From NCBI GenBank assembly GCA_008017145.1, contig SSGY01000211.1, forward strand, positions 1 to 28,502: a DNA stretch of 28,502 nucleotides, read 5' to 3'. Below the pieces are notes generated by a model. That model ran no database searches, had not been told where the DNA came from, and saw only the letters and a program-made list of their open reading frames with translations. This DNA is from Neisseriales bacterium. GTDB taxonomy: Bacteria > Pseudomonadota > Gammaproteobacteria > Burkholderiales > UBA11063. Of this stretch, positions 1 through 18,417 are shown one piece after another; within the stretch, counting starts at the first letter, position 1; each line of letters starts with the position of its first letter. Position numbers and translations under genes: made by a program.

Positions 1-741
1 AATGCACTCTGTGCAAAATATAATAATGCTACAAATAATAATAGTGGCTGTAATGGGCTTTTCACAGATTTGTCAAGTGGTGAACTACAATCAATGCAAT
101 TTATCTATAATATTAATGATGGTCATGATGGCTCATTCCCTGTGGCAGCGCCGTGTATGATGAATGAAAATGCAGCATTAGGAAGCTCTCCAACAGGAAT
201 TGAAGGAATTGCGAACTGGACAGACCCAACTCATGCTGTCGCCTGTGATGGCAGTGGTAATTGCGGATTCTCACAAGCATATAATGTGTCGATTGTTCCG
301 CCACCTGTAATCTTTGTAAGCTCTCTTACCTACAATGGGAATTTGGGGGGGCTAGCAGGAGCAGATCAATCGTGTAATAATGATCCAGCTATGCCATCCT
401 TTGGAGGTACATACAAAGCCCTATTAGTAGGAAATAATGCAACAACGGCAGATACAAAATATTATCGTCCGGACGGGACATATATCGCAACTGCTAATTC
501 TGGGATGCTTGTCAACAATGCAAATAATGAACCGCTGACTAGTGCTATTTCTAGCTCATCGTTCACTGTCTGGACTGGATTTGGTGGAGACGTTGCTAAT
601 GAGACCTGCAATAATTGGACCAGTAGCTCAAACAATGATATAGGATATAAAGGCACTTCAGATCAACTTGACGAACCTTATTTAAGGTCAAACACGCCTG
701 ACTGCTCGGAACAGAATCATTTATACTGCGTCAAACAATAA
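1..741 (+). CDS. Secreted modular protein, Cys-rich N-module plus DUF1554-like domain (5' end outside window)
   Basis: The reading frame is open from base 1, so the gene starts upstream; the TTG at 70 is only an internal codon. The visible part is 246 residues. Residues 1-100 form a Cys-rich module (LC, GC, LQSMQFIYNI, PCMMN, CDGSGNCGFSQAY) that matches, block by block, residues 130-210 of the RCC1 lipoprotein at 2523-4415. From about residue 101 (IFVSSLTYNGNLGGLAGADQ) to the end it resembles the DUF1554 family, a C-type-lectin-like fold known from Leptospira and other bacteria: GTYKALLV, WTG, CNNWTS, and a final Cys pair ending LYCVKQ. High Ser/Asn/Thr and paired Cys suggest an exported, disulfide-bonded protein. 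A signal peptide cannot be checked. The gene converges on the asparagine-synthetase-like gene with a 21-base gap. Binding function is inferred only from the fold. Confidence 0.8.
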   Translation, partial: NALCAKYNNATNNNSGCNGLFTDLSSGELQSMQFIYNINDGHDGSFPVAAPCMMNENAALGSSPTGIEGIANWTDPTHAVACDGSGNCGFSQAYNVSIVPPPVIFVSSLTYNGNLGGLAGADQSCNNDPAMPSFGGTYKALLVGNNATTADTKYYRPDGTYIATANSGMLVNNANNEPLTSAISSSSFTVWTGFGGDVANETCNNWTSSSNNDIGYKGTSDQLDEPYLRSNTPDCSEQNHLYCVKQ

Positions 742-762: not shown

Positions 763-2409
763 TTATTTTACTAAAAATTGATTTAAACTTAGCAAAGCTA
801 AATCTTGATATAGATTAGTATTTTCTAAAATGTTTGGATCAAATTTTAAAATTTGCTCTTTAATTTTCCAATACTGCAATTGTGTATTTAATTGGTTTTT
901 AAGCTCATTCTGATAACTTTGACGAATTTTAATAAACGTTGAGCCCATTATATTTCCGTCAAATTTTGCAATTGGTTTTTCTGTAAATTCAGGCATCCCC
1001 GCTTGTGCCAAATATTTTCTAATCATAATTCGGGCCAAACCATTTTCACGCTTCATGTGCAAAGGCAAGCGATTACAAAACTCAACTAATTTGGGATATA
1101 GCAATGGATACTTATATTTAAAGCCATAATGACGCGCAATTAAGGCACTATCTTCTATCCTATAACAGATATGATTATTATCCACCCCAACTAACTGGCG
1201 AAGTTCAAGTTCGGCAATAGATTTAGCTTTAGGTATATAATCAGGAAACATAAAACTTGATTTGACAAATTTCTGCTTATCCTGCTGGTAGCGTTGCAAT
1301 GCATATTTCTCTCTTAATTCAGGAAATTGTGCACCGAGCCAAGTTTTGATCTGAGTAATCATAGCTGGTTTCAATAGATTATTCATTGCATAGTGTCGGT
1401 GATATTCTTGCCAAGCCTTTTTATACTGCCCATGTTTAAGCCACTGTAATAAACATAACTGCAAGTTTGCATGCCCTGACACACATTCATCACCACCAAA
1501 TCCGGATAACAAAATTTTTGTTTTATCAGTAGCTGCTTTGGTGTGTATAATATTTGCGCCGATGGGGAAAAGACTTTGTATTTGCCCTGCAAGAACTTCT
1601 GTAACCATATCAAGTACAGGTTGCAACTCAAAATCATTTGCATCAATATTACTATGTTTAAAGCCATATTTTTTGACCAATTCTTCAACAAAATAGCCTT
1701 CTCGAATCCTCTTCTTTAAAGGATCATAATCCTGATCTAGGTGAGTATAAAGAGTTAATGGTTTATTAAGATGGTACGCAGCTAAAATGATACTTGAAGA
1801 GTCTAAACCACCACTACACTCTGCGGCAAGAGCTGTTTCATTGCCAATTTGTAGCTTAATTCCCTCATGAAATAATTCACTAAAATGCTCCAAATACTCG
1901 TTTTCATCATTATAGTAAATTGTTTCATGGCAATGGCTGGCTAAATCCCAATATTGGGTTTGAGTAATAGTATCATTGGAAATAGTAACTACGTGATTAG
2001 GCTTAACTCGCTTTATACCATTATATAACGTTTCTTCATGAACCTCTGTTGGATAAGTCAGTACTTTACCTAGTATTAACATATACCTTAATTCATCTTC
2101 ATTAACGCTAATACTAATCTGATCTTGTTTAAGTGCTGAGATTAGTTCTGCAAGAGAAGAAGCAAAATATAGGTTTTGTTGATTGATAAAATAAAAAAAT
2201 GGTTCGCAACCAAAATGATCACGTACCAACTGAATAGTCTCAGATATATTATCAATAATTACACATGCAAACTCGGTATAAGTAGTTAGCCAAAATTCAG
2301 TTTGTGGATTTTCTCTTAATTGTGCAATTAGTTCAATATTTGGTGAATAATAAGTTTTCTCACCAATACAGAATGATTGCCAATTTGATACATTAACTAG
2401 ATGACGCAT
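763..2409 (-). CDS. Asparagine-synthetase-like enzyme without Cys2; candidate lasso-type macrolactam cyclase
   Basis: 548 residues with the class-B asparagine synthetase layout: a degenerate N-terminal glutaminase-like domain (about 1-160, with RDHFGCEPFFY and LYFASSLAEL) and a C-terminal ATP-pyrophosphatase domain with the PP-loop SGGLDSS at 199-205 and GFGGDE at 303-308. The protein begins MRH; a TAA stop lies two codons upstream in frame, so the missing Cys2 nucleophile is not a start-site artefact. The enzyme therefore should not hydrolyse glutamine. Cys2-less homologues of this size include lasso peptide cyclases (McjC family), which activate an Asp/Glu side chain with ATP and close it on Gly1. 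The precursor-like gene at 4405-4569, upstream on the same strand, fits that role. An ammonia-dependent amidotransferase is the alternative. The RNA before it carries a hairpin (2433-2456). Enzyme class is sure; the cyclase role is inference. Confidence 0.75.
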   Translation of the reverse strand: MRHLVNVSNWQSFCIGEKTYYSPNIELIAQLRENPQTEFWLTTYTEFACVIIDNISETIQLVRDHFGCEPFFYFINQQNLYFASSLAELISALKQDQISISVNEDELRYMLILGKVLTYPTEVHEETLYNGIKRVKPNHVVTISNDTITQTQYWDLASHCHETIYYNDENEYLEHFSELFHEGIKLQIGNETALAAECSGGLDSSSIILAAYHLNKPLTLYTHLDQDYDPLKKRIREGYFVEELVKKYGFKHSNIDANDFELQPVLDMVTEVLAGQIQSLFPIGANIIHTKAATDKTKILLSGFGGDECVSGHANLQLCLLQWLKHGQYKKAWQEYHRHYAMNNLLKPAMITQIKTWLGAQFPELREKYALQRYQQDKQKFVKSSFMFPDYIPKAKSIAELELRQLVGVDNNHICYRIEDSALIARHYGFKYKYPLLYPKLVEFCNRLPLHMKRENGLARIMIRKYLAQAGMPEFTEKPIAKFDGNIMGSTFIKIRQSYQNELKNQLNTQLQYWKIKEQILKFDPNILENTNLYQDLALLSLNQFLVK

Positions 2410-2432
2410 AATTTAATCTCAGTAAAATGAAT

Positions 2433-2456
2433 GGCTTACTAACAAAATAGTAAACC
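2433..2456 (-). promoter_or_regulatory. Hairpin in the leader of the asparagine-synthetase-like gene
   Basis: On the minus strand GGTTTACTA and TAGTAAGCC pair over 9 bp (one G-U) around a 6-base loop TTTTGT. It lies 24 bases before the ATG at 2409, within the 113-base gap after the RCC1 lipoprotein. No U-run follows, so it is not an intrinsic terminator; it could be a processing or stability element. A small second hairpin (ATACT/AGTAT) lies at 2465-2477. Confidence 0.45.
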
Positions 2457-2522
2457 ACTCTAATATACTCAAAGTATTTGATAGATAGTATTATGCTCGC
2501 AACAAGTATAATAGCGGCATAA

Positions 2523-4415
2523 TTATTGGACTAAAGTTGGTACATTGACATTATTATTTGCACCATTACCAATCTGCCCATCACTGCCATAACCCCAGCA
2601 GTAGGTGTTGCCTGCGTTATCTCCGCTAGCTGCTATTGCACAACTAAAGCTAGTATTCGTTGAAATATAGCCAAAGCTAGTAACACCACTGGGCATGGTT
2701 ACCGCGGTTGGCACATTAACATTACTATCAGCACCATTCCCGATTTGTCCATCTGTGCCTAATCCCCAACAGTAAACTTTGCCGGTATTGGCTAGCGCAC
2801 AACTAAAGTTAGGATTGGTTGACACCGCCGTAAAACTAGTAACCCCGTTTGGCATGGTTACCGCGGTCGGAACATTAACATTGCTATTGGCACCATTACC
2901 AATTTGTCCACTTGTGCCTTTACCACAGCAATAGATAGTTCCAGTATTAGCTATTGCACAACTAAAGTTAGCATTAGTAGATATAGCCGTAAAACTTGGC
3001 ATTGTTACAGAAGTAGGAACATTGACATCATTATTTGTACCGTTACCAATCCGTCCATTTGCGCCTATACCCCAGCAGTAAATCTTGCCATTATTTGCGA
3101 TAGCACAAGTAAATTTGCTATTAGTCGAGAGCGCACTAAAGCTCTCGACTCCACTTGGCATTACCACAGAAGTTGGCACATTAACATTAGTGCTAGCACC
3201 ATTGCCAATTTGAGCATAAATACCCGTACCCCAACAGTAAACCTTGCCATTATTGGCAATCGCGCAACTAAATTCAGCATTAGTAGATACCGTGGTAAAG
3301 CTCTCAACACCATTTGGTATTATCACGGAAGTCGGTATATTTACACCTGCATTGGCACCATTACCAATCTGCCCAGAACCAGCACCACCCCAACAATAAA
3401 GATTACCATTATGGGCAATCGCACAACTGAATTTTGTATTAGTCGACACCATATTAAAACTCTCAACACCAACTGGCATCGTAACCGCAGTTGGTACATT
3501 GACGCTGTCATTTGTACCATTACCAATCTGCCCACTATCACCAGCTCCCCAACAATAAAGATTACCTGTGTTTGCGATACCACAACTCAAAGTAGTATCT
3601 ACTGATACCTGACTAAAACTAGCTATACCATCAGGCATAACTACCTGTGATGGTAGAGCATCGACTCCTTGACCATTACCCATTTGACCACCACTACCTG
3701 AACCCCAGCAAGTTAGATTATTACTCAGACTACCTGTCACACGACAGCTGGAACCAGAGCTAGTCGATATCGCAGGTATCCCTAGTAACTGTGCGCCATA
3801 GGATTCGGAGTAACCACAGGAGTTCCCAGAAGCACATGTAGTTGGCGTAGCTGGCGTTGAATAATCAGCTAATGCTTCGTAGCTTTTAGTCGCATTGTAC
3901 ATACACGTAGATGAGCTTGACGCTAAATTCGTATAATTATATTTATACTGGATTGATTTAAAGGTAGAGTTTTGAGCAGCGCTCAATTCAGCCGAACATC
4001 CACCAGCATAAGCATTGCATACATTGTAGTTGGATTGATCACTGGTCGAATAAGTTCCTGCAGGTATGGTCGTAGCACTTCCACCAATAGTCGTTACACT
4101 TGATAGACTTTCACAATGATCATCCGTGTAGTAATTCATCTCAATACTGGCTAATGTAACTGGAGCTAAAGCAGTAAACACTTGCTGATTACCAAGCTTA
4201 CTCATTGCTAATGTATTCTTGGAGGAAATATTGATGTTTGTGTTTGTCGACAGTGGCTTATAATTTAAGCTTTTAATGTAACTCTGCAACGTTAAATCAT
4301 TCATAGCATTATTTGCAATATTTTGATTATTAGCACCTGAACCACAACCAGTCAAAGATCCAACTAATCCAACTAGCAATAAAATATGGCTAATCATTTT
4401 ATTATCAACTAGCAT
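2523..4415 (-). CDS. Lipoprotein with eight RCC1-like repeats
   Basis: 630 residues from the ATG at 4415, chosen because GGTGG lies 5 bases before it on the minus strand; a GTG at 4424 is the longer option. A signal peptide ends in the lipobox LTGC, so Cys24 is the predicted lipidated residue and the protein should be anchored in a membrane after export. Residues about 85-212 are the Cys-rich module shared with the protein at 1-741. From about 224 to the end there are eight units of 46-60 residues, each with SCxIA...YCWG...GQIGNG...NVPTxVxMP, typical of RCC1/alpha-tubulin suppressor beta-propellers. Each unit carries two Cys, unlike cytosolic RCC1 proteins. One unit has YCCG in place of YCWG. 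The start overlaps the end of the 54-residue peptide gene by 11 bases in another frame, which suggests coupled translation. The ligand is unknown; it could be a surface adhesin, or a partner or target of the neighbouring peptide. Confidence 0.85.
   Translation of the reverse strand: MLVDNKMISHILLLVGLVGSLTGCGSGANNQNIANNAMNDLTLQSYIKSLNYKPLSTNTNINISSKNTLAMSKLGNQQVFTALAPVTLASIEMNYYTDDHCESLSSVTTIGGSATTIPAGTYSTSDQSNYNVCNAYAGGCSAELSAAQNSTFKSIQYKYNYTNLASSSSTCMYNATKSYEALADYSTPATPTTCASGNSCGYSESYGAQLLGIPAISTSSGSSCRVTGSLSNNLTCWGSGSGGQMGNGQGVDALPSQVVMPDGIASFSQVSVDTTLSCGIANTGNLYCWGAGDSGQIGNGTNDSVNVPTAVTMPVGVESFNMVSTNTKFSCAIAHNGNLYCWGGAGSGQIGNGANAGVNIPTSVIIPNGVESFTTVSTNAEFSCAIANNGKVYCWGTGIYAQIGNGASTNVNVPTSVVMPSGVESFSALSTNSKFTCAIANNGKIYCWGIGANGRIGNGTNNDVNVPTSVTMPSFTAISTNANFSCAIANTGTIYCCGKGTSGQIGNGANSNVNVPTAVTMPNGVTSFTAVSTNPNFSCALANTGKVYCWGLGTDGQIGNGADSNVNVPTAVTMPSGVTSFGYISTNTSFSCAIAASGDNAGNTYCWGYGSDGQIGNGANNNVNVPTLVQ
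2526..3746 (-). repeat. In-gene tandem repeat array, eight units of roughly 150 bp
   Basis: The RCC1-like units are visible as near-repeats in DNA: phrases such as ACCATTACCAATYTG and GCACAACTAAA recur about every 150 bases on the plus strand. Units differ by scattered substitutions, and one boundary has a short deletion (TMPSFTAIS where neighbours read MPxGVxSF). The array could change length by recombination or slippage. The long antisense frame over it is a by-product of the repeats. Confidence 0.8.
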
Positions 4416-4569
4416 AAATACCACCCTGACTTTCTAGGATATATTGCGGAACTCCGCCAAGTATGTGCTCAGAAACACTAAATTCTTCTATTACAGGGCT
4501 TTTATAATCAATTTTCTTCTTAAGAGCAACACTTTCTATATGCGCTTTCTTGTCATCTACATAACTCAT
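4405..4569 (-). CDS. Putative lasso-type RiPP precursor peptide, 54 aa
   Basis: ATG at 4569 with GGAG 8 bases before it on the minus strand; TGA at 4407-4405. The peptide begins MSYVDDKKAH, has a charged leader with DYKSPVIEEF at residues 21-30, and ends GGVPQYILESQGGIYAS at 38-54. Y-x-x-P-x-[LI] in the leader is the motif bound by RiPP recognition elements in many lasso systems. If the core starts at Gly39, Glu46 is position 8; if at Gly38, it is position 9. Both are classic lasso ring sizes, leaving an 8-residue tail with bulky Ile-Tyr. The Thr usual at leader position -2 is absent (Ile or Leu). The gene overlaps the lipoprotein gene by 11 bases, and the Cys2-less asparagine synthetase homologue follows on the same strand. 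No B-type protease or recognition protein is seen nearby. The ORF, RBS and motif are direct observations; RiPP identity is inferred. Confidence 0.6.
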   Translation of the reverse strand: MSYVDDKKAHIESVALKKKIDYKSPVIEEFSVSEHILGGVPQYILESQGGIYAS

Positions 4570-4616
4570 TCTATATGCTCCATTTACCTACAAAAACAAT
4601 TGTAATATTGTACTGA

Positions 4617-4790: not shown

Positions 4791-6611
4791 ATGGCAAAAA
4801 ACCTACGCAATATTGCAATTATCGCTCACGTGGATCATGGTAAAACAACTCTGGTTGACAAATTATTACATCAAGCAGGAACATTTTCTGCTCATCAACA
4901 TATCGCAGAACGCGTAATGGATAGCAATGACATTGAAAAAGAACGCGGAATTACGATTTTTGCTAAAAATGCCTCATTAGATTATAAAGGTACTAAAGTT
5001 AATATCGTGGATACTCCTGGACATGCTGATTTCGGCGGGGAAGTTGAACGAGTATTGGGAATGGTTGATGGCGTATTATTATTAGTTGATGCGGTTGAAG
5101 GACCAATGCCACAAACACGTTTCGTAACACGTAAAGCATTAGCTCTAGGGTTAAAACCAATTGTTGTCGTAAATAAAATTGACCGTGACGGTGCACGTCC
5201 AGAATGGGTTGTTGATCAAACATTTGATTTATTTGACAAACTTGGAGCAACCGAAGAACAGTTAGATTTCCCTGTTGTCTATGCATCGGCAATTAATGGT
5301 TTTGCAAGTCTTAATCCTGAAGAGCGTCCAGATAATATGGAAGCACTTTTTGAAACAATTATGTCTCACGTTCATGCACCTCAGGACGATGTTGATGGTT
5401 CGTTACAATTACAGATTTCAGCTTTAGATTATAATACATTTGTTGGTCGTATTGGTATCGGACGTATTCGTCAAGGTAAAATCAAAGCTGGACAACAGGT
5501 AATAGTTGCAACTGGTCCAGATGGTGAACGTAAGCCAGCTAAAATTAATCAAATTCAAGTCTTCCATGGGTTAGATAAAGCACTGGTTGATGAAGCATCA
5601 GCTGGCGATATCGTTTTAATTAATGGAATTAGTGAGTTAAATATCGGGGTTACAATATGTGATGTTGCCAATCCTGAACCACTCCCAATGTTAGTGATTG
5701 ATGAACCTACTTTAAGTATGAATTTACAGGTAAATACTTCTCCCCTAGCTGGAACTGAAGGTAAATTTGTAACTAGTCGTCAGATTCGTGACCGTCTAAC
5801 TAAAGAATTATTAACCAATGTCGCCTTAAAAGTTGAAGATACTGAAAATGCCGATGTGTTTTTATTGTCAGGACGTGGTGAATTACATTTAACTATTTTA
5901 ATTGAAAATATGCGTCGTGAAGGATTTGAGTTAGCTGTGGCTAAGCCTCACGTAGTGATGAAAATGATTAATGGTGAAAAGTGTGAACCGTATGAAGCAT
6001 TGACAATTGATCTTGAAGATGAACATCAAGGGGCAGTAATGGAAGAACTTGGTCGCCGTAAAGGTGAACTAACCGACATGGTGTCAGATGGTAAAGGGCG
6101 CACTCGCCTAGAATACCGCATCCCTGCCCGTGGTTTAATTGGATTCCAAGGTGAGTTTTTAACTCTAACCCGCGGTTCTGGTTTGATGGCTCACTTATTT
6201 GATGACTACGGTCCAGTAAAAGCAGATTTACCAGGCCGTCGGAATGGTGTCTTGATTTCCCAAGAAGATGGTGCCGCTGTTGCTTACGCATTATGGAAGC
6301 TTGAAGATCGTGGGCGGATGTTTGTAAGTCCTGGTGAAAAACTATATACCGGAATGGTTATTGGTGTTCATAGCCGTGATAATGATTTGAACGTTAACCC
6401 AGTTAAAGGTAAACAGTTAACCAACGTTCGCGCATCAGGAACCGATGAAGCCGTGCGCTTAACACCGCCAATTCAACTGACCTTAGAAAGTGCAATTGAA
6501 TTTATTGATGATGACGAATTAGTTGAAGTTACACCAAAAAGTGTTCGTATCCGCAAACGTTACTTAGATGAAACAGAACGCAAACGCGCATACAAAGCTA
6601 ACAATAGTTAA
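4791..6611 (+). CDS. typA: Ribosome-associated GTPase BipA/TypA
   Basis: 606 residues, the normal length for this translational GTPase, which acts on the ribosome in 50S assembly and in stress or cold adaptation. G-domain motifs are clear: G1 AHVDHGKTT at 12-20, G2 in the ERGIT region at 51-55, G3 DTPGHAD at 74-80, and G4 NKID at 128-131. EF-G-like domains follow, then the TypA-specific C-terminal part ([35 protein letters not shown]). The ATG at 4791 follows AGAGAAA. A GC-rich hairpin follows the stop, so the small gene downstream is probably read separately or by partial read-through. Confidence 0.97.
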
Positions 6612-11472: not shown

Positions 11473-12513
11473 TTATCCTTTAGCATGTTGCTTTGCAACT
11501 TCAAGAATTAATTTAGCAGTACTCTCCCAGCTTAAACAAGGATCTGTTATGGATAAACCACTCATATCAATAGGATTGCCACTTTCAGCATTTTGGCGAC
11601 CTTCTTTAATGAAGCTTTCGAGCATAAAGCCTTTTACTAGATTTTTTAATTCTGGTTGCTCTTTTAATGATTCGATGACACGTAAAACAATATTTGCTTG
11701 TTCATTATGGTCTTTAACACCATCAATTACACAATTGTCATGACTAACATCGACAATAATTGCTGGATTTACCACTTGGTTTTTCTTAAATAATTCATTA
11801 ACTTCAGCAATATATTCAACGCCATAGTTTGAACTATCATTACTACCACGCAAAACTAAATGTGCGTATTTATTGCCCGCGGTTTTAACTTCATAACCAT
11901 CGAAAACGATATAATGCGGATGCTGCGCAGCCAAAATACTGTTCACTGCAATTTTTAGTGAACCATGAGTAGGATTTTTCATCCCAACTGGACAATCAAG
12001 TGATGATGCAAAAATACGGTGTTCCTGATCTTCCGTGCTTCTAGCACCGATAGCTACCCAAGAAAGTAACTCTTGAAATCCACGCGCATTGTGGGTAAAT
12101 AAACACTCATCGGCAATCGGTAAGCCCATTTCAACCACTTGCGTCATGAGTTTACGACAATACCAGATACCTGCTTCAATATCTGGTTCAGCCAGAGGGT
12201 CTGGTTGGTTAATCGGACCTGTCCAGCCTTTAACTGTACGTGGTTTTTGAATATACACACGCATCACTATTTTAATTGAATGAGCTACTTGCTTACTTAA
12301 TTCCGCTAAGGATTTGGCATATTCCAATACCGCAGTATCCGGCCATGCAGAACATGGACCAACTATCATTAATAAGCGTGAATCTTTACCACTCAAAATA
12401 TCTTCAATTTCTCGATGGTGTTGCTGAATACTTGCATATCCTTCAATACTTAACGGTATCTTCTGAATAATTTCATCAGATGTCGGAACTTTTTTTATAA
12501 TTTCGTAAGCCAT
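11473..12513 (-). CDS. DAHP synthase, type I (second tandem copy)
   Basis: 346 residues; condenses phosphoenolpyruvate with erythrose 4-phosphate. Metal and substrate motifs are present: GPCSAWP (metal Cys), KPRTVKGWTG, GARSTEDQEHR, LRGSND, DVSHDNC (metal His), MLESFI (metal Glu), SITDPC (metal Asp). It resembles AroF/G/H enzymes overall but belongs to a divergent branch. It is about two-thirds identical by eye to the copy at 12552-13592, equal in length and colinear, so the pair arose by tandem duplication. Where E. coli AroG has DMITPQY, including inhibitor-site residues Asp146 and Pro150, this copy reads FTHNARG. RBS AAGGAT precedes the ATG. Confidence 0.92.
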   Translation of the reverse strand: MAYEIIKKVPTSDEIIQKIPLSIEGYASIQQHHREIEDILSGKDSRLLMIVGPCSAWPDTAVLEYAKSLAELSKQVAHSIKIVMRVYIQKPRTVKGWTGPINQPDPLAEPDIEAGIWYCRKLMTQVVEMGLPIADECLFTHNARGFQELLSWVAIGARSTEDQEHRIFASSLDCPVGMKNPTHGSLKIAVNSILAAQHPHYIVFDGYEVKTAGNKYAHLVLRGSNDSSNYGVEYIAEVNELFKKNQVVNPAIIVDVSHDNCVIDGVKDHNEQANIVLRVIESLKEQPELKNLVKGFMLESFIKEGRQNAESGNPIDMSGLSITDPCLSWESTAKLILEVAKQHAKG

Positions 12514-12551: not shown

Positions 12552-13592
12552 TTATTTCTCAATATGTAAATCAGCTAATTTTAACAATAATGCCTCAGTA
12601 TCATCCCAGCCCAAGCATGGATCAGTTATAGATAAACCACATAAGTCAATCGGATTAGCGGTCTCTGCATTTTGTTTGCCTGGTTTAATAAAACTCTCAA
12701 GCATAAACCCCTTAACTAAAGTTTTTAATTCTGGATTAGTTTTTAAATTATTAACTACTTCAAGAATAATGTCGGCTTGAGCATTATGGTCTTTAACTCC
12801 ATTAACCACGCAATTATCATGACTTACGTCAATAATTACCGCTGGATTATAAACATTATTCTTTTTACATTGCTCAGCAACTTCACTAATATCTGCCAAT
12901 GAATAATTAGGGCGATCATTACTACCACGTAAAACTAAATGTGCATATTGATTACCATCAGTTTCAACTTCATTACCATCTAATACTATATAGTGAGAAT
13001 GTTGCGCAGCTACTACACCATTTATTCCGATTTTAATTGATCCATGCGTTGGATTTTTAATCCCAACTGGACAATCAATGCCTGATGCAAAAATACGATG
13101 TTCCTGATCTTCGCTACTTCTAGCACCAATTGCAACCCATGATAATAGCTCAATAAAGCCACGCGCATTGTGTGTAAACAACGCTTCATCGGCAATCGGC
13201 AAGCCCATTTCGACAACTTGCGTCATAAGTTTACGACAATACAATGCACCTGCAGCAATATCAGGAGGAGACAGCGGATCAGGTTGATTCACCGGACCAG
13301 TCCAACCTTTGATTGTCCGTGGTTTTTGGATATAAACCCGCATAACTAATTTTAGCGCATGGCTCACTTTTTCATTTAATTTTTTTAAACGCTCAGCGTA
13401 TTCTAAAACCGCAGTATCAGGCCATGCTGAACAAGGTCCTACCACCACAATTAATCTTTGATCCTTGCCGCTTAAAATAGCTTCAATTTCAATACGATGT
13501 TTATCAATGCTCAAATAACCTTCGTCACTTAACGGAAATGCCGCAATAATCTCATCTGCAGTTGGTATTTTTTTTACTATCCGGTAACCCAT
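12552..13592 (-). CDS. DAHP synthase, type I (first tandem copy)
   Basis: 346 residues, all catalytic motifs intact: GPCSAWP, KPRTIKGWTG, GARSSEDQEHR, LRGSND, DVSHDNC, MLESFI, SITDPC. It lies 20 bases after aroB and 38 bases before the second copy, with AGGA before the ATG. The region matching the AroG inhibitor pocket again reads FTHNARG. The copies differ most in 200-260 and at the C-terminus (LHIEK versus QHAKG), so different effector response or partner is possible. Both look active. Confidence 0.92.
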   Translation of the reverse strand: MGYRIVKKIPTADEIIAAFPLSDEGYLSIDKHRIEIEAILSGKDQRLIVVVGPCSAWPDTAVLEYAERLKKLNEKVSHALKLVMRVYIQKPRTIKGWTGPVNQPDPLSPPDIAAGALYCRKLMTQVVEMGLPIADEALFTHNARGFIELLSWVAIGARSSEDQEHRIFASGIDCPVGIKNPTHGSIKIGINGVVAAQHSHYIVLDGNEVETDGNQYAHLVLRGSNDRPNYSLADISEVAEQCKKNNVYNPAVIIDVSHDNCVVNGVKDHNAQADIILEVVNNLKTNPELKTLVKGFMLESFIKPGKQNAETANPIDLCGLSITDPCLGWDDTEALLLKLADLHIEK

Positions 13593-17379: not shown

Positions 17380-18417
17380 ATGAATTTCACTCAATCACAA
17401 TTTACTCGCGCAGCGCGCCTAAGTCTTGCGATGATAATAAGTTTCGTCTACGTTGCTTATATAGGCATGTCAGACGGAATTTGGGTCATAATGACATGCG
17501 CAATTATTCTTTTCGATAATCCTACTCTTGGTGGCACAATTAACAAAAGCCATTTGCGGTTTTGGGGAACTTTTTTTGCTGCAGCATTCTCGCTAATATT
17601 CATTGTAGGATTTGCTAATAATGTTATTATAAATTTACTTGGAGTGGTTATAGGCACTTTTCTTGCTGCTTACTGGTATATGGATACAGCACAAGGATAT
17701 ATTGGCGGACTCATCTCATGGACATTACCCATAATATTGCTTAATAACAATGACATTAAAAGTGCCTTCCTAAGGTTGATGAATATCATTATTGGAATTA
17801 TTGTTTCCTATATTATGTTAAGATATTTTTACCCTGAATATGCACGGGATAATATGCTGAAATCAATGCATAAGACACTTGCTGAACTAAAAATCCTGTT
17901 ACTATCTATTAGTGATCCAGAGCTAGGCTCAGAGCAAATCCAAGTTCTCTACCTAAATCACGAAGCAAAAATCTTAACTGAAATTAATAGCTTTAATCGT
18001 TGGCAAACGGAGGCAAAATGGGAGACTAAAAGAGCTCAAGAATATGTTGATGCTGCAGCTCTTGCTTATTTACACATCAGACGATTATATCGATTACTGA
18101 GCGTGGTAATTTTCTATTTCAACTGTGATGAAATTCGTCATAATTCTAAAATTCAGCCACGATTTATACAGATTAAATATCAATTAGAAGGAATGATTGA
18201 CGCATTAATACAGAATCAAAAGCAGTATTATATCCCTGAAATATTTAATCAAAATAAGAAGAATATAACTTCAGAACTATTAAATCACGATGAATATCAA
18301 CACTATCAAAATCTATCAATTCAAACTATTACTGATATTATTCAAATTGAAATCGATGTTATTACCGCAAATCTAATCAAATTATTTAAGAGCCGTCAAG
18401 CACATAACTACTATTAG
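17380..18417 (+). CDS. Half-size FUSC family membrane protein (AaeB/YccS-like)
   Basis: 345 residues. The first 155 form a hydrophobic bundle of about six helices (LSLAMIISFVYVAYIGMSDGIWVIMTCAIIL onward), with the FUSC-type turn DNPTLGGTINKSHLRFWGT. The rest is a helical cytosolic region. Full-length AaeB and YccS proteins have about 650-720 residues with two membrane bundles, so this is a one-bundle form that may act as a dimer. The family exports aromatic acids or other small anions with a fusion protein; the convergent gene at 18555-19562 is a suitable partner. Its TAG stop (18415-18417) is made from the TA target plus the first base of the inserted repeat element. Without the insertion the frame would run one Tyr further to TGA. 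No clear RBS. Confidence 0.8.
   Translation: MNFTQSQFTRAARLSLAMIISFVYVAYIGMSDGIWVIMTCAIILFDNPTLGGTINKSHLRFWGTFFAAAFSLIFIVGFANNVIINLLGVVIGTFLAAYWYMDTAQGYIGGLISWTLPIILLNNNDIKSAFLRLMNIIIGIIVSYIMLRYFYPEYARDNMLKSMHKTLAELKILLLSISDPELGSEQIQVLYLNHEAKILTEINSFNRWQTEAKWETKRAQEYVDAAALAYLHIRRLYRLLSVVIFYFNCDEIRHNSKIQPRFIQIKYQLEGMIDALIQNQKQYYIPEIFNQNKKNITSELLNHDEYQHYQNLSIQTITDIIQIEIDVITANLIKLFKSRQAHNYY

Follow-up and report, generated by a model that had tools for sequence, protein, structure and literature searches.

We analysed a 28,502-nucleotide (nt) stretch of DNA from a Neisseriales bacterium (assembly GCA_008017145.1, contig SSGY01000211.1, positions 1 to 28,502; hereafter the window). Its minus strand carries three genes, transcribed in the order given here: a 54-codon gene resembling the precursors of lasso peptides (4569-4405), a gene for a surface lipoprotein (4415-2523) and a gene for an asparagine synthetase B (AsnB) homologue resembling lasso cyclases (2409-763). 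The divergent neighbour of the precursor gene is typA, which starts at 4791 on the plus strand. We consider it probable that the window holds a precursor-lipoprotein module and the cyclase of a kinase-type lasso system whose other genes lie elsewhere in the genome. The features are listed below with their lengths in amino acids (aa).

4405..4569, minus strand: predicted lasso precursor gene, 54 aa, stop codon 4405-4407 (leave-one-out profile, 7e-16; 13-row alignment)
4578..4581, minus strand: ribosome-binding site GGAG before the precursor gene (read from the sequence)
4459..4569, minus strand: predicted leader, 37 aa (motif Y22-K-S-P25-V-I27; Ile36 penultimate in the preferred register)
4408..4458, minus strand: predicted core GGVPQYILESQGGIYAS, 17 aa, or 16 aa from the second Gly (alignment)
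4432-4434, minus strand: codon of the predicted ring Glu, Glu46
4408-4410, minus strand: codon of the C-terminal Ser (Ser at the end of all 11 distinct precursors)
4405..4415, minus strand: 11-nt overlap of precursor end and lipoprotein start (sequence; equal overlap in locus L002, 298-308)
2523..4415, minus strand: surface lipoprotein, 630 aa, with signal peptide, lipobox LTGC, N-terminal domain and RCC1 propeller (Pfam RCC1)
3783..4350, edges approximate, minus strand: N-terminal domain of the lipoprotein (alignment, genome search)
763..2409, minus strand: predicted lasso macrolactam cyclase (AsnB-like), 548 aa (NF033535 best model; tree; AlphaFold2/Foldseek)

Precursor and cyclase

The GGAG lies 8 nt from the precursor ATG, and the earlier note, made from the letters alone, had read the frame correctly as a 54-codon gene with a good ribosome-binding site and a YxxPxI leader. 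Precursor relatives were collected beside related cyclases first and then by profile, giving an alignment of 13 rows, some of them close pairs. All 13 rows share Tyr22, Pro25 and Glu46, and Gly39 is almost fully conserved; Tyr22 and Pro25 belong to the YxxPx(L/I) leader motif bound by the recognition element (RRE) of ribosomally synthesized and post-translationally modified peptides. When the window row and its 98% identical twin were excluded from the profile, the window frame was matched at 7e-16, against 1.0 for the next best of 333 window frames; with the four closest remaining relatives dropped too, the values were 1.1e-10 and 1.2. A chance open reading frame is thereby ruled out. Other assemblies hold one precursor 98% identical to that of the window and several at 46–48%. 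The weakest precursor kept, on contig C23 of genome G010, has an E-value of only 0.0015 and was retained for its motif, while a seventh precursor genome, G008, was dropped, its single match standing at 0.03. The earlier note had named, as a result that would speak against it, a frame not conserved in relatives that keep the cyclase; the peptide is conserved across the 13 rows, though G001 has no precursor at its cyclase locus. Judged by profile, invariant residues and the C-terminal Ser found in 11/11 distinct precursors, the sequence identifies the 54-codon frame as a real lasso precursor.

Lasso cores begin with Gly or another small residue, followed by Glu or Asp 7–9 residues on. The Glu of GGVPQYILESQGGIYAS is the ninth residue counted from the first Gly and the eighth from the second, as the note had counted. 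With the core starting at window residue 38, core residue 1 is Gly in eight, Ser in two and Asp in one of the 11 distinct precursors, and the ring Glu stands at position 8 in 9/11 and at position 9 in the window and G002. In the same register, leader residue -2 is Thr in four, Ile in five and Val in two, and the leader Tyr is at -16 in 10/11 and at -15 in G007. PMC10368454 gives a Tyr at -17 as required for B1 recognition. With that spacing the core of the window precursor would begin at residue 39, the ring would have 8 residues and Leu37 would be the penultimate leader residue. The predicted lasso masses are 1719.85 Da for the 17-aa core and 1662.83 Da for the 16-aa core.

The cyclase candidate begins MRHLVN, without the N-terminal Cys, and retains SGGLDS and GGDE, which bears out the same-strand, Cys-less asparagine synthetase homologue of the earlier note. 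Its best NCBIfam model is the lasso cyclase model NF033535 (142 bits), with asparagine synthase second (117). The four other cyclases examined whose loci carry lasso genes or a precursor all score 120–254 on NF033535, likewise below its cut-off, whereas an ordinary enzyme of G010 that starts with MCG scores 312 on it and 442, over the cut-off, on asparagine synthase. Because this ordinary enzyme outscores the lasso-locus cyclases, the NF033535 score does not discriminate.

A tree of 38 enzymes carries more weight. In it the window enzyme belongs to a clade of 19 (support 100/100), among them cyclases whose loci hold genes for an RRE, a B2 leader protease or a kinase. The MCG-type enzymes make up a separate clade of 13, also at 100/100; MCG stands near the start of 12 of them, and the remaining frame has an open start. 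Three Bacteroidota enzymes with lasso-like surroundings are not in the clade of 19, and the tree is uncertain for the long-branched L068, L020, L065 and L089 and for the deep joins (90/63). An AlphaFold2 model of the enzyme (predicted local distance difference test, pLDDT, 88.9) matched the hydroxyamidotransferase TsnB9, carbapenam and beta-lactam synthetases and asparagine synthetase B in Foldseek, and a PDB sequence search gave a single match, a hydroxyamidotransferase, at 7.5e-5. A 97% identical cyclase is intact in other assemblies. The tree and the missing N-terminal Cys rule out an ordinary asparagine synthetase, among which the earlier note had allowed that the enzyme might cluster, and its phylogenetic position marks it as a lasso cyclase.

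A surface lipoprotein beside the precursor

The lipoprotein frame spans 2523-4424, and comparison with L002 and with proteins P0129 and P0130 favours the ATG at 4415 as its start. RCC1 is matched at 3.9e-59 in eight stretches, and only RCC1-type Pfam families exceed the cut-off. Isopeptidases of the AtxE type combine a propeller with a hydrolase domain; by Pfam the window lipoprotein has no hydrolase domain, and a lasso isopeptidase is ruled out. Ahead of the propeller lies the N-terminal domain (NTD), about 200 residues that recur in other secreted proteins of the group. It has no Pfam match, and its AlphaFold2 model is poor (pLDDT 44.7).

The part behind the NTD varies. It is an RCC1 propeller in the window, L002 and L073. 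In G004 the NTD (L084) and a Kelch-repeat tail that exceeds Pfam cut-offs (L004) are on different contigs, and the two probably form one gene. DUF1554 follows the NTD in the frame at the left edge of the window and, below the Pfam cut-off, in L006 and L114. NTD proteins lacking a recognised precursor nearby end in other propellers, DUF1554, Lcl_C or glycosyl hydrolase 18.

The pairing of precursor and NTD gene was followed through the 23 genomes of the G001 family, where six of eight precursors adjoin an NTD gene. The NTD gene lies downstream on the same strand in G002 (11-nt overlap), G003 (94 nt), G004 (14 nt) and on contigs C39 (3 nt) and C38 (19 nt, the gene being interrupted after 51 codons) of G010; in G005 it is divergent from the precursor, at about 300 nt. 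Under a simple placement model the chance of this is 5e-16 for 6/8, and 2e-7 for the 3/5 precursors that were found by profile and not via a cyclase; both values are rough because the genomes are related. G001, which keeps the cyclase beside typA, lacks the 2.3-kb precursor-lipoprotein module that the window has between these two genes, and this absence marks the module as a unit. A further precursor (P0123) and an RCC1 protein (P0131) in other assemblies, whose longest contigs are equal in length (57,123), fit the linkage without proving it. Order-wide searches (399 genomes each, one of them scoring ≤7 candidates per genome) found precursors in two and NTDs in four genomes, all already in the family set, so they did not widen the association.

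The lipoprotein might instead be a functionally unlinked neighbour, a member of a lineage-specific surface family that shares variable loci with the precursor, which would be compatible with a lasso system. The NTD occurs at 23 places in eight of the 23 genomes, and only five of these have an adjoining precursor (the interrupted gene on C38 is outside the 23), leaving 18/23 without a recognised precursor in flanks of about 1.5 kb. This rules out the NTD as a lasso-specific domain. Two of the eight precursors (G001 C1 and G010 C23) have no adjoining NTD gene, and the relatedness of the genomes means that the cases are not independent. Such a neighbour would not readily account for the placement-model values, for same-strand adjacency in the window as well as in the five cases above, for an 11-nt overlap in two cases and a 3-nt gap in one, or for a pairing that persists while the C-terminal part changes among RCC1, Kelch and DUF1554-like forms. 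We regard the unlinked neighbour as a serious possibility, albeit the less favoured one.

We favour a surface partner because the genes overlap and because the outer, C-terminal part is exchanged. The comparison suggests that the lipoprotein belongs to the lasso system as a recurring partner, with a role that would be exerted at the cell surface, and the overlap of the two genes possibly reflects translational coupling. The earlier note had put a propeller lipoprotein between precursor and cyclase genes; that position stands, yet the gene is not merely interposed, since it shares the strand of the precursor and overlaps it by 11 nt. Its standing as a recurring partner had gone unnoticed.

Several observations concern the lipoprotein family itself. 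A second member is cut by the window edge:

1..741, plus strand: neighbouring secreted protein, end of an NTD followed by DUF1554 (DUF1554 7.7e-21; NTD profile)

The NTD match of this frame is 1.3e-13, or 6.1e-16 with the window's RCC1 protein left out of the profile, and its LenA/LenF matches are below cut-off. It converges on the cyclase gene, with 21 bases between. The RCC1 repeats (2523-3780, minus strand) are tandem 159-nt units of varying number, and the window lipoprotein has 630 aa against 1066 aa in P0130 although their N-terminal domains are 97% identical; the length difference may be either a real change or an assembly collapse. On G010 C38 (L124, 3598-3753) the interruption of the lipoprotein gene behind the precursor lies near the contig end and is perhaps due to an insertion element.

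Maturation genes and the proposed system

Close to related cyclases, the genes missing from the window are found. Genes for an RRE, B2, a kinase, a nucleotidyltransferase or an ABC exporter surround cyclases 73–36% identical to that of the window, and B2 and RRE genes adjoin those at 53–36%. Locus L003 reads cyclase (53% identical), HPr-kinase-like gene, PqqD-type RRE, B2, nucleotidyltransferase and ABC exporter; L004 holds B2, kinase, PqqD, nucleotidyltransferase and cyclase together; and L002 shows cyclase, kinase and PqqD up to the point where its contig breaks off. The bacteria are uncultured; the records file L001, L002 and L004 as Neisseriaceae or Neisseriales, L003 as Burkholderiales and L006 as Pseudomonadota. 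The B2 of L003 (genome G003) exceeds both curated cut-offs (NF033537, 80.4 bits vs 33; PF13471, 67 vs 26), as do the PqqD (PF05402), kinase (PF07475) and nucleotidyltransferase (PF14907) genes of G003 for theirs; NCBIfam's lasso models for PqqD and HprK score below their cut-offs there. B2 is present in 7/7 genomes reached via L001–L007 and, across the G001 family, in 6/23, the same six that have convincing precursors.

The nearest relative with a genome, G001 (cyclase protein 76% identical), has these genes dispersed. Its cyclase is on contig C10 (69.4–71.1 kb on an 84-kb contig), a kinase-PqqD-B2-nucleotidyltransferase cassette on C2, with the nucleotidyltransferase as a 95-aa frame close to the contig end, and its precursor on C1 beside genes that we take by eye to be rplM-rpsI. 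An ABC exporter homologue on C24 is 59–60% identical to the exporters of G003 and G002. In G010 the B2-kinase-PqqD-nucleotidyltransferase-ABC cassette is on C4, and three precursors are on C38, C39 and C23. The relatives' assemblies are fragmented, so distances between dispersed genes are lower bounds. The typA and aro regions are syntenic between the window and G001. A separate difference appears at the G001 counterpart of the window's FUSC-family gene (17380-18417, plus strand), where an ABC exporter of the lasso type lies nearby, as does a protein consisting of the NTD alone (L107); the window has neither there.

Because G001 holds RRE, B2 and kinase on another contig than its cyclase, we read the window as part of a dispersed kinase-type lasso system rather than a new macrolactam class. 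By analogy, the window's own genome would encode elsewhere a PqqD-like RRE (B1), a B2 leader protease, an HPr-kinase-like enzyme, a nucleotidyltransferase and an ABC exporter. The RRE would bind the YxxPxI leader, and the kinase would phosphorylate the C-terminal Ser, whose phosphate might be further modified by the nucleotidyltransferase. B2 would cleave after Ile36-Leu37. The cyclase would adenylate the side chain of Glu46 and link it to the Gly thus exposed at the N-terminus while the tail is threaded, after which the finished lasso peptide would be exported. The lipoprotein would work with the peptide at the cell surface, most likely by binding or presenting it, with immunity or reception as further candidate roles. 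The earlier note had left the choice between a lasso system with its partner elsewhere and a different class of macrolactam or amide former. The former is what the relatives suggest, through the G001 cassette on another contig than its cyclase and the B2, PqqD-type RRE and HPr-kinase-like genes of L003; the latter found no support.

A number of points weigh against this reading. Within the 28.5 kb, 0/5 profiles (B2, kinase, RRE, nucleotidyltransferase and exporter) gave a match, which agrees with the earlier note that leader protease and recognition protein are not in the window, and G001 proteins gave no match there at E below 0.1 except an NTD. With no B1, B2, kinase, nucleotidyltransferase or ABC gene in the window and the genome seen only that far, the rest of the set could have been lost in this lineage. 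G010, with three precursors and B2, yielded no close cyclase from the clade of the window enzyme; its distant Cys-less homologues L065 and L068, for which the lasso cyclase model is best (214 and 194 bits), may serve instead. The window enzyme, which the earlier note had wished compared with lasso cyclase models, is below the cut-off on both NF033535 (525 bits) and the asparagine synthase model. The leader-core boundary is ambiguous, in that the published Tyr(-17) shifts the start one residue later, and we keep both cores.

If a once-whole system had lost its leader protease and RRE, precursor and cyclase would be on their way out. This fits the lack of B1, B2 and kinase matches in the window, the missing module at the same site in G001, and a cyclase gene with only 76.7% DNA identity between window and G001 where the typA and aro regions have 87–88%. 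Such decay is nonetheless improbable: the precursor, lipoprotein and cyclase frames are all intact, other assemblies hold intact precursors and cyclases at 98% and 97% identity, G001 retains the B2, RRE and kinase genes on a separate contig, and the core codons compared with L002 are 8 identical, 5 synonymous and 4 changed. A system free of leader protease, in which the AsnB-like enzyme modifies the peptide or lipoprotein directly, would suit the missing protease and RRE, and the lasso peptide pseudomycoidin, going by the title of a paper that PMC9266682 cites, can reportedly form without leader and leader peptidase, but we think it very unlikely given the B2 and RRE genes adjoining 53–36% identical cyclases and the YxxP motif, invariant in 13/13 rows as expected if an RRE reads it.

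More tentatively, the dispersed kinase-type lasso system might act in trans, one scattered enzyme set maturing several precursors from separate loci, each produced with a surface lipoprotein of its own from a modular family (common NTD, exchangeable propeller or lectin-like C-terminal part), so that the peptide would be a ligand, cargo or displayed part and not a free antibiotic. Genome mining that expects precursor, B and C genes as neighbours would miss such dispersed systems, as the window illustrates with a precursor and a cyclase and no B protein within reach. The repeated precursor-lipoprotein pairing provides a partner that can be put to the test and leads away from the view of the peptide as simply an antibiotic.

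Related systems and other observations

The closest known counterparts are the clusters of paeninodin, pseudomycoidin and BsfA, which feature Ser phosphorylation, a split B1 and B2, and an optional nucleotidyltransferase. Shared with them are the YxxPx(L/I) leader, possible Ile or Val at -2, the C-terminal Ser and the AsnB-like cyclase and, in the window's relatives, the PqqD-type RRE, B2, HPr-kinase-like and NTP_transf_5 genes; of the features of the kinase-type subgroup, the window precursor has the C-terminal Ser and only the relatives have the HPr-kinase-like gene. In contrast to those clusters, the genes are dispersed in the nearest relative, the precursor is paired with a surface lipoprotein, and the kinase is putative. 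Proteobacterial lasso clusters with an isopeptidase and a TonB receptor also encode an extracytoplasmic partner beside the lasso genes, and their AtxE-type isopeptidases contain a propeller; they differ in that the Pfam search gave the RCC1 lipoprotein no hydrolase domain. RCC1-repeat proteins and leptospiral endostatin-like (LenA/LenF) DUF1554 proteins resemble the window lipoprotein and the left-edge frame, respectively, but here these domains are joined to a shared NTD and sometimes preceded by a lasso precursor.

PMC9266682 reports that PadeK, ThcoK, SyanK and PsmK phosphorylate a C-terminal Ser, that the nucleotidyltransferase homologue PsmN adds hexoses at the phosphorylated site, and that the functions of lasso phosphorylation and further tailoring are still open. 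Phosphorylation of the C-terminal Ser is a fair prediction here by analogy; it is a prediction and not a result because BsfK, according to PMC10368454, phosphorylates Ser3 instead, in a kinase-containing lasso cluster for which Ile(-2) is validated. The open-licence literature, outside which most subscription journals fall, gave no paper joining 'lasso peptide' and 'RCC1', and in the available part of PMC12282271 lasso peptides are mentioned in the reference list only.

A search against plasmids gave 210 records, all below 60% identity, with the best 20 of the 210 at 21–24%. Promoter-like sites number 23 in the window against 16.6 (standard deviation 3.5) in shuffles and were not used as evidence.

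Two further loci show other arrangements. In L085 (1183-1620; G006, Gammaproteobacteria bin.23) a PqqD-type RRE (PF05402) shares one frame with a precursor-like end, YQAPTL ... GDGNINESLSGDGLLMS; a secreted protein and the cyclase come next. The papers listed by a single search on such fusions do not contain the phrase 'fused to the precursor'. L089 (785-3856; G004) carries two lasso loci in back-to-back orientation. One strand has the precursor-lipoprotein pair; the opposite strand has two precursor-like frames, with the ends GDDGLGFFSGS and GTDGTGAFTGS, ahead of a second, distant cyclase (254 bits on NF033535). In the window itself, tandem genes for 346-aa DAHP synthases (PF00793) lie at 11473-12513 and 12552-13592 on the minus strand, within a run of aromatic amino acid genes.

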